Shown here: positions 2-29,788 of the stretch, piece by piece | Layout: every line of letters starts with the position of its first letter | Numbering within the stretch: the first letter of the stretch is position 1 | Origin: Halodesulfovibrio sp. | Lineage (GTDB): Bacteria > Desulfobacterota > Desulfovibrionia > Desulfovibrionales > Desulfovibrionaceae | NCBI RefSeq assembly: GCF_015482765.1 | Contig: NZ_JADMLB010000031.1 | Coordinates: 1-32,420, forward strand | Direction: 5' to 3' | DNA: 32,420 bases | Made by a program: the position numbers and the translations under genes | The notes under the pieces: generated by a model | Told to the model about the DNA's origin: nothing | Seen by the model: the letters and a program-made list of their open reading frames with translations, nothing else | The model's database searches: none

Positions 2-96
2 TGGCGGAGAGGGAGAGATTCGAACTCTCGGTACCAGTTTTGCTAGTACACACGATTTCCAATCGTGCTCCTTCGGCCGGGCTCGGACACCTCTCC
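2..96 (-). tRNA. tRNA-Ser (anticodon GGA)
   Basis: Read on the minus strand, this folds as a class II tRNA. The acceptor stem GGAGAGG pairs with CCTCTCC, followed by discriminator G and an encoded CCA at the 3' end. The anticodon stem CACGA/TCGTG encloses the loop TTGGAAA, so the anticodon is GGA (positions 60-58), which reads UCC/UCU serine codons. The T arm has the usual TTCGAAT loop on a GAGAG/CTCTC stem. A long variable arm, typical of serine tRNAs, lies between the anticodon and T arms. Its own terminator would lie left of the window. Confidence 0.96.
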
Positions 97-152: not shown

Positions 153-184
153 AAAATAAAAAAAGGACGGCAAAAAAGCCGTCC
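153..184 (-). terminator. Rho-independent terminator of the small gene at 192-335
   Basis: On the minus strand a 7-bp stem GGACGGC/GCCGTCC with a TTTTTT loop is followed by seven T and a longer AT-rich tail. It begins 7 nt after the TAA at 192-194. That is where a terminator would be expected if translation of the upstream gene runs through the UGA to this TAA. Confidence 0.8.
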
Positions 185-191
185 TGATTGT

Positions 192-335
192 TTATTCATG
201 CTTGTGTGAATCATTTTCGTTAGTCGAGGAGCCTCCTCGCTTAAAGCCAGGACATCAGCCTCCGCCGTTGCGCAGAATTTTTGCTAAAAAATAAACAACA
301 AAAATGAGCGCAATAATTGAAAAAATATGACCCAT
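192..335 (-). CDS. Candidate small membrane selenoprotein A (UGA at 255-257)
   Basis: I do not recognise this family. From ATG 335 the frame encodes 26 residues with one hydrophobic helix (about residues 4-18), then basic residues (AKILRN), then GGG. Next comes in-frame TGA at 255-257, and the frame stays open for 20 more codons (CPGFKRGGSS, then an acidic/His-rich tail) to TAA at 192-194. Read through, it is 47 aa with a U-C pair at residues 27-28. A hairpin starts 15 nt after the UGA. GGAGG lies 7 nt before ATG 335. An in-frame ATG at 374 with AAAGGA upstream would add 13 Gly/Phe-rich residues and give 60 aa. By the positive-inside rule the tail faces the cytoplasm. The paralogue at 543-719 has the same plan. 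If UGA is a normal stop, this is a 26-residue membrane peptide. Selenocysteine is inferred from the sequence layout only. Confidence 0.55.
225..239 (-). promoter_or_regulatory. Candidate bacterial SECIS hairpin A
   Basis: On the minus strand a perfect 6-bp stem CGAGGA/TCCTCG closes a 3-nt loop GGC. The loop begins 21 nt after the UGA at 255-257. Bacterial SECIS elements are hairpins directly downstream of the UGA, usually with a small apical loop that carries G early in it, about 16-37 nt away; this one fits that pattern. In frame it encodes RGGSS. The same hairpin, with one A-U changed to G-U, recurs at 592-610. Confidence 0.5.
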
Positions 336-504
336 TGGAAAACCTCCAAAGCCTCCAAAAAATGAACATGACATGCCGTTGTTCCTTTGTGGTATATGTT
401 ACAACGAATGTTCATGGAATAGTCATCTGAGACTGCTGAGCTTTTTATACAGCTCAACACTGTATTGCGTTATGGAAACTGTAGAACAAGCATTCTTGAA
501 AATC

Positions 505-537
505 AAACAAAAAGGGCGGCAAAAATGCCGCCCTTTT
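505..537 (-). terminator. Terminator after the second small gene (end of the hisD-purC-fabI unit)
   Basis: The GC-rich stem GGGCGGC/GCCGCCC with an ATTTTT loop is followed on the minus strand by TTTTTG and an AT-rich stretch. It lies 6 nt after the TAG at 543-545, so it ends the transcript that reads fabI and the small UGA-containing gene. Flanking A and T runs could make it weakly bidirectional. Confidence 0.8.
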
Positions 538-542
538 ATTCG

Positions 543-719
543 CTATTTGCAGTTGTACTTTTTTTTATTCGCAGAACTGCATGAGCATCCTGACGAGGAG
601 CCTCCCCGTCCGTCAAAGCTTATGCCTCACCCAGAGGGTTTATGGCCTTTTGGAACAACTTTGATGCAGACGAGTGCTATAACCACTAATCCCACGATTG
701 GGATGATGAATTCAAGCAT
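543..719 (-). CDS. Candidate small membrane selenoprotein B (UGA at 627-629)
   Basis: This is a paralogue of the gene at 192-335 and also not a family I recognise. It has a strong Shine-Dalgarno, AGGAGG, 5 nt before ATG 719, and starts 24 nt after the fabI stop, so it is very likely co-transcribed with fabI. Thirty residues precede the UGA: one hydrophobic helix (about 4-19, with Cys18), then a basic Lys/His segment ending KPSG. After TGA 627-629 the frame is open for 27 codons (GISFDGRGGSSS, then GCSC, a Lys run and NCK) to TAG 543-545. Read through it is 58 aa. The tail holds three Cys, suggesting metal or thiol chemistry at the cytoplasmic membrane face (inference). The RGGSS segment is at nearly the same distance from UGA as in the paralogue, one codon further. 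If UGA is a true stop, the product is a 30-aa membrane peptide. Confidence 0.55.
592..610 (-). promoter_or_regulatory. Candidate bacterial SECIS hairpin B
   Basis: On the minus strand an 8-bp stem GACGGGGA/TCCTCGTC, including one G-U pair, closes the loop GGC. The loop begins 24 nt after the UGA at 627-629. Hairpin A has A-U where this has G-U, so pairing is kept despite a base change. It encodes RGGSS in frame, as hairpin A does. Confidence 0.5.
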
Positions 720-743: not shown

Positions 744-1517
744 CTACTTGATACCGATACCTACCACATGATAGCCGGCATCAACATGCAGAACCTCACC
801 GGTAACACCGGAAGAGAGGTCAGATGCAAGGTACAGAGCAGAGCGTCCCACGTCGTCAGTGGTAACGTTGCGCTGCTGCGGAGCATTTTCTTCAATGTAG
901 TTAAGAATTTTACGGAAACCGGAGATACCGGAAGCCGCAAGAGTCTTAATAGGACCAGCGCTGATAGCGTTGATACGAACATTTTTCTCGCCGAGATCAA
1001 CAGCAAGGTATCGTACGCTGGCTTCAAGAGCTGCTTTAGCTACGCCCATTACGTTGTAGTTCGTGATAACTTTTTCAGAACCGTAATAGGACATTGTAAT
1101 GATGGATGCATTATCTGACAAGAGATGCTCGAAAGCACCGCAAACAGCAGTCAGAGAGTATGCAGAAATATCCATCGCAAGTTTAAAACCGTCACGGGAA
1201 GTTTCAATAAAACGACCCTGAAGATCTTTACGGTCAGCGAAGCCGATGGAGTGAACAATAATATCCACGCCACCCCATTTCTCTTCAACCAATTTCACTG
1301 CTGCAGCAATTTCTTCATCGCTGCTTACATCACACTGGAAGATGAAATCGCCATCGAGCTCTTCACAGATAGGCTCAACACGTTTTTTCAGTGCATCGCC
1401 AAGATAGTTGAATGCTAATTTAGCACCGTTATCTTTGAACTGTTTAGCGATGCCGTATGCAATGCTTTTGTTGTTGGCAACGCCCAGAACGAGGGCTCGT
1501 TTCCCTTCAAGAAGCAT
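744..1517 (-). CDS. fabI: Enoyl-[acyl-carrier-protein] reductase (NADH)
   Basis: FabI reduces trans-2-enoyl-ACP to acyl-ACP in the last step of each fatty-acid elongation cycle, in the cytosol. The 257-aa length is typical. The N-terminal nucleotide-binding turn is GVANNKS at residues 12-18. The catalytic segment SYYGSEKVITNYNVMGVAK places Tyr144, Tyr154 and Lys161 with the Y-x6-K spacing of divergent short-chain dehydrogenases of the FabI type. GGAG precedes ATG 1517 at normal spacing. It is the third gene of a minus-strand run hisD-purC-fabI, with 65 nt between purC and fabI. A small UGA-containing gene follows 24 nt downstream. Confidence 0.97.
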   Translation of the reverse strand: MLLEGKRALVLGVANNKSIAYGIAKQFKDNGAKLAFNYLGDALKKRVEPICEELDGDFIFQCDVSSDEEIAAAVKLVEEKWGGVDIIVHSIGFADRKDLQGRFIETSRDGFKLAMDISAYSLTAVCGAFEHLLSDNASIITMSYYGSEKVITNYNVMGVAKAALEASVRYLAVDLGEKNVRINAISAGPIKTLAASGISGFRKILNYIEENAPQQRNVTTDDVGRSALYLASDLSSGVTGEVLHVDAGYHVVGIGIK

Positions 1518-26640: not shown

Positions 26641-26680
26641 AAAAAAAAGCCCCATCCGAGAACCTTCGGATGGGGCTTTT
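26641..26680. terminator. Bidirectional terminator
   Basis: The 11-bp stem GCCCCATCCGA/TCGGATGGGGC (26649-26676) has eight A on the left and TTTT on the right. It serves both the phosphatase gene and the converging Met-rich gene. Confidence 0.9.
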
Positions 26681-26699
26681 ACAGTTCAATTTTCGATTG

Positions 26700-27659
26700 T
26701 TACTCGTAAGTCTGGCCAGTGTATCCTTCACGCATTGGTGCGTTCATCATGTAGTCCTGATTGTAGTCAGGGTTTTCCTTTTGTGGTGAACGGTATCTTT
26801 CAGGAAGATTTTTCTGATGCATGTGTCCAGGAGCCATCTGGTGACGCATAGGTGTCTGCCCTCTGTAAACTGGCTGACCATTAACCATATTCATGTATAC
26901 TGGAGGATGGGCGCTCATAGGCATGTAGTTAGGGTCTGACATTTTCATCTGATGGAGACGATGGAGAAGCATGTCACGACCAGTAATGTCGAGGCCGTAG
27001 CTGTCTTTCAGAACAATCTGCTGCCTCTTGAGATTTTCCATTAACGCTTTACGTGCTTTTTCACGTTTGAGTTCGATGGTGGCTTTTTGTGCCGGTGAAG
27101 TCATTGCGGAGCGTTCCAGCATCATATGCTGATGTTTGAGCATCATTAATTCGTCAAACATCGGTTTGTTCTGTGCTGAAAATTCTGTCAGTGTTTTCAT
27201 AAGGTTTGCGCGCATTTCAGGGGTCAGATTAGCTGCCTGAATTTTTGCGCACATAGGACAACGTCCCATTTGAACCGGCTGCATTGTGTTATTGTACGGT
27301 GCAGGGTGGTGCATCATTCTGCCGTCTTGATGCATCATGCCTTTTTTCATCATCATCTGATCATGTTTAACCATCATGTCCTGATTCATCTGACCGTGCT
27401 TCATCATCATTTGCTGGCGATGCATGGTTTGCATTTCAGGTGAGTAATGTTTGGTGATGCCGCTAGGGGAAGTGTATGTTCTCGGCACAGCATACATTTG
27501 GTTGTCAGCCATTGAAGGTGCTGCCGGTTGCATGGTCGGATACATTTCCTGTTGCATCATGGCGCCGCTTTGAGGCTGCATTTCCTGTGACTGAGCTGCC
27601 TGCGGTGCAAAGAGTATTGCGGTGCAAAATATAAACAAGCTAATCTTTACCACTCTCAT
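26700..27659 (-). CDS. Exported Met/His-rich protein with Spy/CpxP-like helical segment
   Basis: The 319-aa protein has a signal peptide (MRVVKISLFIFCTAILFA, cleavage near AQS at about 24). I count 48 methionines, about 15% of residues, many in MM or MMM runs next to His (e.g. MMMKHGQMNQDMMVKHDQMMM, read in part), plus one CPMC pair near residue 135. Residues about 140-225 are a charged helical region (LTPEMRANLMKTLTEF onward) reminiscent of Spy/CpxP or metal-resistance helical-hairpin proteins. Met/His/CxxC richness suggests periplasmic binding of Cu(I)/Ag(I) or another soft metal; this is inference. A GAGGAGT-type ribosome site precedes ATG 27659. Confidence 0.7.
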   Translation of the reverse strand: MRVVKISLFIFCTAILFAPQAAQSQEMQPQSGAMMQQEMYPTMQPAAPSMADNQMYAVPRTYTSPSGITKHYSPEMQTMHRQQMMMKHGQMNQDMMVKHDQMMMKKGMMHQDGRMMHHPAPYNNTMQPVQMGRCPMCAKIQAANLTPEMRANLMKTLTEFSAQNKPMFDELMMLKHQHMMLERSAMTSPAQKATIELKREKARKALMENLKRQQIVLKDSYGLDITGRDMLLHRLHQMKMSDPNYMPMSAHPPVYMNMVNGQPVYRGQTPMRHQMAPGHMHQKNLPERYRSPQKENPDYNQDYMMNAPMREGYTGQTYE

Positions 27660-27982: not shown

Positions 27983-29788
27983 ATGGCGAAACTGGATAAC
28001 ATTCGAAATTTCAGCATTATTGCACACATTGATCATGGTAAATCTACCCTTGCGGACCGTATTCTTGAAATTACCGGTCTGGTAAGTGAGAGAGACCAGC
28101 GTGAGCAGTATCTCGACCGCATGGAGCTTGAACGCGAACGCGGTATTACCATTAAGGCACAGGCGGTACGAATCCCGTATAAAGCTAAAGACGGTGAAGA
28201 GTACATTTTAAACCTGATTGATACTCCGGGACACGTTGACTTCGGTTACGAAGTATCTCGATCTCTTGCTGCCTGTGAGGGCGCTCTGCTTGTTGTGGAC
28301 TCCACACAGGGCGTTGAGGCACAGACACTTGCTAACGTATACCTTGCACTGGATCACGATCATGAAATCGTTCCTGTACTGAACAAGGTAGACTTGCCAA
28401 GTGCTGATGTAGATCGTGTTGGAGCTGAGATCGAAGAGAGCATCGGACTTGACGCAACAGACGCTGTCGGCGTGAGTGCTAAAACAGGTCTGAATGTAGA
28501 TCTTGTTCTTGAAGCAATTGTTGACCGCCTTCCTGCTCCTAAGGGAGAGAAGGATGCACCTCTCAAGGCTTTGATCTTCGACTCATGGTATGACTCCTAT
28601 CAGGGCGTTATTGTTATGTTCCGTATAATTGATGGTACCGTGAAAAAAGGCGATAAGATTCGTCTCATGGCAACCGAAAAGGAATATGAGATTACTCGCC
28701 TTGGTGTTTTCAGCCCTGAAATGGTTGAGATGAAGGAACTGGCTGCCGGTGAGGTAGGGTTCCTTTGTGCTACCATTAAAGAGCTTGGCGATGCGAAAGT
28801 CGGTGATACCATTACACTGGCGAATAATCCTTCGCAGGAAGCTATTCCCGGGTTTAAAGAAGTTCAGCCGATGGTTTTCTGCGGTCTGTATCCTTCTGAT
28901 TCTCAGGATTACGAAAACTTAAAATATGCTCTTGAAAAATTGCAGTTGAATGATGCTGCATTCCAGTATGAAGCAGAGACTTCTCAGGCACTGGGATTCG
29001 GTTTCCGTTGCGGCTTCCTTGGTTTGCTGCATATGGAAATTATTCAGGAACGTATTGAACGCGAATTTAATATCGACCTCATCGCAACAGCACCTTCTGT
29101 TATTTACAAAGTAGAAACAGCAGACGGCGTTGTTCATGAAGTGGATAACCCTGCAAAGCTTCCTGACCCAAGTAAAACGGAAGCATTGTACGAGCCGTTT
29201 GTACGCTGTGAGATTCACGTTCCGGACGAATACGTCGGCAACGTTCTAAAGTTGTGTGAAGAAAAGCGCGGTATTCAGAAGGATATGAAATATCTGACAA
29301 CAAACCGCGTTATCATCACGTATGAGCTGCCTTTTGCAGAAATTGTGTACGATTTCTTTGATAAGCTGAAATCATACACCAAAGGGTATGCTTCTATGGA
29401 CTACGAAATCGTAGACTACCGTGAAGCAAACCTTGTTAAGCTTGATATGCTGATCAACGGTGACCCAGTGGATGCTTTGGCAACAATTGTGCACAAAGAT
29501 AAAGCATACTACCACGGTCGCGCTGTAGCATTAAAACTGAAACGCAGTATTCCGCGCCAGTTGTACGAAGTTGTTGTACAGGCTGCTATCGGTCAGAAAA
29601 TTATTGCAAGAGAGCGCAATGCGCCGTTACGTAAAAACGTTACCGCTAAATGTTACGGCGGTGATATTTCACGTAAGCGTAAGCTGCTTGAAAAGCAGAA
29701 AGAGGGTAAGAAACGCATGAAGCGCATGGGTAACATTGAGTTACCGCAGGAAGCGTTCCTTGCAGCTCTCAAAATTGGCGACGATTAG
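27983..29788 (+). CDS. lepA: Elongation factor 4
   Basis: LepA/EF4 is a ribosome-binding GTPase linked to elongation quality and 30S assembly. GTPase motifs are AHIDHGKST, the switch region with [17 protein letters not shown] and NKVDLP, followed by EF-G-like domains and the LepA-specific C-terminal domain ([17 protein letters not shown]). From ATG 27983 it is 601 aa, the usual length. An in-frame GTG at 27956 would add 9 residues; it has AGGAGG, but only 1 nt away. The ATG has no good site at normal distance, so the start is uncertain. lepB follows after 44 nt. Confidence 0.96.

Follow-up and report, generated by a model that had tools for sequence, protein, structure and literature searches.

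A fabI-linked group of candidate one-helix mini-selenoproteins in Desulfovibrionaceae

A short ORF (ORF A) on the minus strand of a 32,420-nt stretch of DNA from Halodesulfovibrio, family Desulfovibrionaceae (the whole stretch is called the window hereafter), is very probably the gene of a one-helix membrane mini-selenoprotein and forms, with a second ORF of the window (ORF B), part of a fabI-linked group in this family. The group to which both ORFs belong is larger and apparently undescribed. The proposal of the first-pass annotation that the UGA of ORF A encodes selenocysteine (Sec) is supported, as far as sequence can tell, by the selenocysteine machinery of the host, the conserved UGA and a covarying hairpin similar to those of FdhA.

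ORF A and ORF B in Halodesulfovibrio

The region from 374 to 192, translated with TGA as U, reads MSCSFFGGFGGFPMGHIFSIIALIFVVYFLAKILRNGGG-U-CPGFKRGGSSTNENDSHKHE*. The first-pass annotation had described an ORF with one hydrophobic helix followed by GGG-UGA-CPG, open for 20 codons beyond the UGA, and the minus strand contains exactly this: one hydrophobic helix, GGG-U-CPG, and 20 sense codons after the UGA, of which C, P and G are the first. Its extent had been given as 192..374. The stop was confirmed, but the protein probably starts 39 nt further in, at 335, and has 47 aa. This start is favored because all five homologues have a Met inside the frame, preceded within a few nt by a Shine-Dalgarno sequence of the GGAG type, whereas the upstream ATG is present in three of them. 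The clear terminator described after the TAA was also recovered, but the distance between them is 6 nt and not 7 nt. The sequence flanking ORF A downstream, on the tRNA-Ser side, is the same in G079, G142 and G108. The features of both ORFs are listed in Table 1.

Table 1. Coordinates in the window of ORF A, ORF B and adjacent features
Feature	Position	Strand	Remark
tRNA-Ser(GGA), downstream of ORF A	2..96	-	
Terminator of ORF A	164..185	-	stem 6 nt past TAA
Stop codon TAA of ORF A	194-192	-	
ORF A from its probable start, 47 aa, predicted Sec at residue 27	192..335	-	internal Met and Shine-Dalgarno sequence in 5/5 homologues
Putative SECIS hairpin of ORF A, CGAGGA-GGC-TCCTCG	225..239	-	loop 21 nt past UGA
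UGA codon of ORF A, predicted to be read as selenocysteine	255..257	-	
Extension of ORF A to the upstream ATG, 13 codons, probably untranslated	336..374	-	missing in 2/5 homologues
Shine-Dalgarno GGAGG ahead of the internal start of ORF A	343..347	-	
Terminator of ORF B	510..537	-	
ORF B, 58 aa, one helix, predicted Sec at residue 31	543..719	-	starts 24 nt after fabI stop
Putative SECIS hairpin of ORF B, GACGGGGA-GGC-TCCTCGTC	592..610	-	loop 24 nt past UGA
UGA codon of ORF B, predicted to be read as selenocysteine	627..629	-	
fabI, upstream neighbour of ORF B, anchor of the syntenic group	744..1517	-	

ORF A was searched as a single sequence against 149 genomes of the family and as a profile against 10 genomes of the genus. 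It was found in 5 of the 10 Halodesulfovibrio genomes, namely G000, G079, G142, G057 and, by synteny, G108, and all five copies carry the UGA. This set was drawn from 70 genomes matched at E <= 1; among the other matches at this level the DNA of L011 and L013 was inspected and the remainder was judged from the match table. At E <= 10 the profile matched all 10 genus genomes, and the weak rows other than those of the five copies, some of which have a TGA, lie outside the count. Among the five copies found in the 149 family and 10 genus genomes there was no Cys homologue, a genome-contig search with the ORF A alignment gave no relative, and searches of viral sequences with ORF A and ORF B gave no match. 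The pairing of Sec with an adjacent Cys, as annotated previously, holds for four copies, and G108 has Phe at this position (UF, not UC). Four copies end in TAA and one in TAG. Of the conservation that had been expected in relatives, the UGA and the covarying hairpin were found, but the tail residues are weakly conserved, and past the hairpin the tail is not conserved at residue level (dN/dS of the tail 0.36). In G120 (L036/L174), ORF A looks lost or never gained, because the sequence found beside ORF A in relatives comes immediately after the terminator of ORF B, as though ORF A had been taken out from between two terminators.

ORF B lies downstream of a gene that we take, from its sequence, to be fabI, encoding enoyl-ACP reductase. 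Its translation with TGA as U is MLEFIIPIVGLVVIALVCIKVVPKGHKPSG-U-GISFDGRGGSSSGCSCSSANKKKYNCK. It is present in all 10 Halodesulfovibrio genomes, always with UGA, so that no Cys homologue was found among the genus copies, and a genome-contig search with its alignment recovered two Halodesulfovibrio loci. In the tail, a CxC motif and a near-terminal Cys are kept in 9/9 aligned copies, dN/dS is 0.19 before the UGA and 0.34 after it, and nine copies end in TAG and one in TGA. Most of the weak matches outside the genus were rejected on their reading frames, a check that covered the matches other than L046, L047, L048 and L049. Two weak TAG-containing matches of the ORF B profile in g40 were set aside (g-numbers denote other genera of Desulfovibrionaceae in the genome set). 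Comparison of the ORF A and ORF B profiles gave a probability of 57% and an E-value of 1e-4, partly across residues encoded by the hairpins, and for this reason paralogy of the two ORFs is suggested and not stated more firmly.

The hairpin with a GGC loop that had been noted at a suitable distance after the UGA of ORF A is indeed present. Its 6-bp stem begins 15 nt past the UGA, and the hairpin folded alone has an energy of -8.0 kcal/mol. In the alignment of the five sequences 97.1% of the cells pair, slid versions of the alignment pair 37-66% of them, and three of the seven pairs are changed on both sides. The covariation score was reached by 0 of 500 shuffles; two of the five measures were unremarkable, as both-side pair changes were reached by 13/500 shuffles and further pair types by 408/500. 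In G142 and G108, the pairing is kept and the encoded residues are changed. When 42 nt were folded, the copy in the window preferred another structure (-10.2), whereas the other four copies formed the hairpin. The hairpin of ORF B has a GGC loop, 8 bp, a distance of 24 nt and a value of -10.4; taken alone it shows little covariation because it varies little. In G096 (L040/L108) its loop is AAAC and fails the rule for G in the loop, and in G149 (L177) it is shorter; the tail frame is kept in both. Both hairpins of the window fall within the loop, stem, spacing and MFE limits of the legend of Fig 2 of PMC13188914, where the bSECIS model has an apical loop of 3-9 nt with G in its first two positions, an upper stem of 4-16 bp, a distance of 16-37 nt from the UGA and an MFE <= -7.5 kcal/mol.

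The absence of selA, selB and selC from the host genome had been named in advance as an argument against Sec, and the host proved able to make selenoproteins: selA was found in the window's own genome by a search covering that genome, selB is above the cut-off in 10/10 genus genomes, and tRNA-Sec is present in all 10, each time with anticodon TCA. Free exchange of UGA for UAA or UAG, and conservation confined to the part before the UGA, had been named likewise; neither was observed, and UGA is retained in 5/5 copies of ORF A. The window's own genome also has three formate dehydrogenase genes and two related frames, each with one in-frame TGA. In the three FdhA hairpins a stem CGGCTCT/AGAGTCG closes a triloop of GGC or GGG that lies about 23 nt from the UGA; the two related frames fold with a larger loop, GGTCT. 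Among 22 tested genomes outside the genus, tRNA-Sec was found in 19 and not found in G006, G030 (64% complete, carrying a UGA form) and G334. In the window itself, a 615-aa frame contains a match to the SelB profile under the cut-off (28010-28711, plus strand, 76 bits), which is probably another translation GTPase.

The fabI-linked group in other genera

Because ORF B follows fabI, the regions downstream of fabI in other genera were examined. Short one-helix ORFs with a TGA were found there in g1, g17, g28, g30, g38, g39 and g40, with the loop of a hairpin at +18 to +25 and a frame that stays open beyond the TGA. A scan for a transmembrane ORF with TGA, hairpin and open tail gave 34 matches in 29 of 99 fabI-downstream regions, 2 matches on the reverse strand of such regions and a mean of 0.05 matches per set over 20 shuffled sets, ratios that are descriptive, as the thresholds were set after the first matches were known and the regions were chosen by fabI similarity. 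The 99 regions came from 102, with G125, which holds the ORF, left out and G003 and G018 too short. In 81 control loci totalling 550,748 strand-bases, from which known ORF A and ORF B loci were left out, the same scan gave no match. Over both strands of the whole window it gave three matches, which were ORF A, ORF B and one at +26670; the last (26670-26789, plus strand) lies largely opposite a minus-strand frame at 26700-27659 and was taken for chance. A helix ORF with a TGA 425 nt past the fabI stop of G334 (g42), where tRNA-Sec was not found, fails the scan and was rejected.

The strongest sequence evidence for Sec in the fabI-linked group is that of g40. When a profile built from five g40 sequences, in which the Sec column was given as C, was run against 288 genomes of the family, it matched 24, all of them g40, and the codon at the Sec position was TGA in 13 and TGT or TGC in 11. 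Replacement of TGA by Cys codons in relatives, which the first-pass annotation had named as support, was found in this part of the wider group (11/24) but not for ORF A itself. The motif HL[RK]WRE after this position is kept in 8 of the 11 Cys forms, and the two kinds can be compared in the pair GTPFANHSP-U-APYIEHLRWREKSDTPP and GTPFAHRCP-C-TPYVAHLKWREKSD. A hairpin defined by three or more contiguous pairs and a GG-triloop at +22 was present in 12/13 UGA forms and in 0/11 Cys forms, counts that do not represent independent events, the UGA forms being close relatives. Six of these hairpins have a stem of 5 bp and one a stem of 6 bp; in the remaining five a bulge comes after 3 bp. The Cys forms L223 and L225 encode an identical HLRWRE without the GG-triloop hairpin. 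An energy measure fails to split g40 cleanly, since -7.5 kcal/mol is reached by 8/13 UGA forms and 4/11 Cys forms. In four UGA forms the tail is weakly constrained, with dN/dS of 0.62 after the UGA and 0.56 before it. Both places are listed for 15 of the 24 g40 genomes; in 14 of these the mini-ORF shares the contig and strand of fabI and lies 164-390 nt downstream of it, and in G308 the two are on different contigs. Six g40 loci (L143, L146, L150, L194, L196 and L201) have an extra small one-helix ORF after fabI without Cys or Sec, for example MDxLTLNALGITxMAxFGLWxFYRAAQ..., which in several lies ahead of the UGA ORF.

In g28 and g39, the tail is better preserved than the helix. The tail GPKKECGWTPP is common to 3/3 copies of g28 despite the divergence of their helix (dN/dS 0.57 before the UGA and 0.23 after). 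In g39 a part resembling QAGAC.IKKK is kept in 5/5 copies, with pN of 0.18 after the UGA and 0.39 before and with dS saturated. All seven copies of g38 have 28 + 27 codons, and their 7-bp stem is fully paired in 7/7 though two positions vary, one of them on both sides; the tail is weakly constrained, at 0.63 after the UGA versus 0.17 before. G087 was left out of the dN/dS set. In g7, a Cys version beginning MSALLTLVFLVAVVYLLAKAEEKGLFHAAGCPCC... follows fabI in G073.

Ten of ten representatives have the predicted Sec at residue 27-33, which is 6-14 residues beyond the end of the helix. In all ten, the residues that follow the helix are positively charged, and those ahead of the helix window are neutral or negatively charged; g28, g39 and one g40 form have a Lys among the first four residues, inside the helix window. 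A Cys is often near Sec, as UC in ORF A, as CU in g38, g30 and one g40 form, and as UxxxxxC in g17 and g28. None of 11 mini-ORF proteins (ORF A, ORF B and nine others) reached the cut-off of a Pfam or NCBIfam model, and five weak matches of the typed proteins, with E of 0.012-0.095, were all under it. No profile similarity was found between ORF A or ORF B and the g40 type, and because of this a shared origin of the group is argued from position and architecture.

Comparison with known selenoproteins

The titles, abstracts and passages of open-licence literature that were covered, including those of PMC12013277, PMC9312934, PMC11955535 and PMC1914089, contain no report of the fabI-linked group. 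The selenoproteins listed for two Desulfovibrio species in the relevant passages of PMC1794560 are SelD, FdhA, DsrE-like, GlpC, HesB-like, FrhA and DsbA-like proteins; these share the decoding route proposed for ORF A and ORF B, but none of those listed there is a one-helix mini protein. Table 1 of the 2026 inventory PMC13188914 has 119 selenoprotein families or subfamilies, and by their family names none is a one-helix membrane mini-selenoprotein. Hypothetical protein DG, KCU-star and selenobacteriocin, as presented in the same table's article, are like the mini-ORFs in having UGA with a bacterial SECIS and, in some cases, CU or GU. The 11 mini-ORF proteins reached no NCBIfam cut-off, and not every family of that inventory has an NCBIfam or Pfam model.

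There is also a close likeness to the eukaryotic SELENOK and SELENOS, which the passages of PMC10650576 describe as having a single N-terminal helix and an unstructured, Gly/basic-rich cytosolic tail that contains Sec, as being grouped by architecture without significant sequence similarity, and as having Cys forms in other lineages. By hydropathy and charge counts the mini-ORFs have a similar single N-terminal helix and a basic, Gly-rich tail, so that they are likened by architecture. Unlike SELENOK and SELENOS, they are bacterial, have 44-61 aa, contain a bacterial-type hairpin inside the ORF and lie beside fabI. In addition, Sec is described as second or third from the C-terminus in SELENOK and SELENOS, but would be residue 27 of 47 in ORF A and 31 of 58 in ORF B, and because of this position in the middle of the protein the mini-ORFs are not classed with them.

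Predicted role and alternative readings of the UGA

In the mechanism that we propose, the hairpin 21 nt after the UGA of ORF A would recruit SelB with Sec-tRNA, and the UGA would be decoded as Sec. The predicted products of the group would have an N-terminal helix, a positive flank, Sec at 27-33, often a Cys close to it, and a polar tail. According to the positive-inside rule, the positive flank of a helix predicts the cytosolic side; this rule and the charge pattern would put the Sec tail on the cytosolic side of the inner membrane. Because Cys is often near Sec, a selenenylsulfide redox center is suggested, and Sec, alone or as a selenenylsulfide with this Cys, may act at the inner membrane in redox reactions of thiols or peroxides. 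The linkage to fabI raises the possibility that such activity, judging from position and chemistry, is tied to lipid synthesis near FabI. The redox role, taken alone and read from sequence, is tentative. We lean slightly towards regarding the group as an independently arisen bacterial counterpart of SELENOK and SELENOS, that is, an undescribed fabI-linked class in which the Sec of the tail is held at a nearly fixed distance from the membrane and would act in the redox chemistry of lipids or membrane proteins.

A real selenoprotein whose Sec serves for selenium storage, sensing or metal binding, and not for redox catalysis, would be consistent with tails that are short and polar and in which no Pfam or NCBIfam family was recognized. 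However, the Cys found near Sec in many forms (UC, CU and UxxxxxC) fits redox chemistry better, and we regard such a role as rather unlikely, though worth considering.

The conservation of the tails bears on whether UGA is instead an ordinary stop. ORF A and ORF B would then encode one-helix peptides of 26-30 aa, and the hairpin would be a 3′ RNA element for stability, termination or regulation. Such an arrangement agrees with the complete helix in the part before the UGA, with the terminator that each ORF has of its own, and with the poorly conserved tail of ORF A and the weakly constrained tail of g38. It does not account for the conservation of the protein after the UGA in ORF B, g28 and g39, nor for g40, where Cys replaces the UGA, the downstream protein is common to both forms, and the GG-triloop hairpin tracks UGA (12/13) but not Cys (0/11). 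The spacing and loop also agree with the FdhA hairpins of the host, and an ordinary stop is therefore improbable. Low-level read-through in which a near-cognate tRNA decodes the UGA, selenium plays no part and the protein gains a C-terminal extension would fit a tail that is in frame and under selection in ORF B, but is hardly credible, since it would need no covarying hairpin at SelB spacing and does not predict Cys in 11/11 sense forms, a count that leans on a profile with C at that column.

Decoding of the UGA as Sec in proteins of this size would have wider consequences. Because finders such as deep-Sep, which is described as requiring Cys homologues, depend on such sequences, selenoproteins of 45-60 residues may escape them, and bacterial selenoproteomes are perhaps systematically undercounted. 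A one-helix selenoprotein with exchange of Sec and Cys among close species would lend itself, as a small system, to tests of why Sec is retained. The group would also offer a bacterial parallel to SELENOK and SELENOS, and its linkage to fabI directs attention to lipid metabolism or membrane redox in Desulfovibrionaceae.
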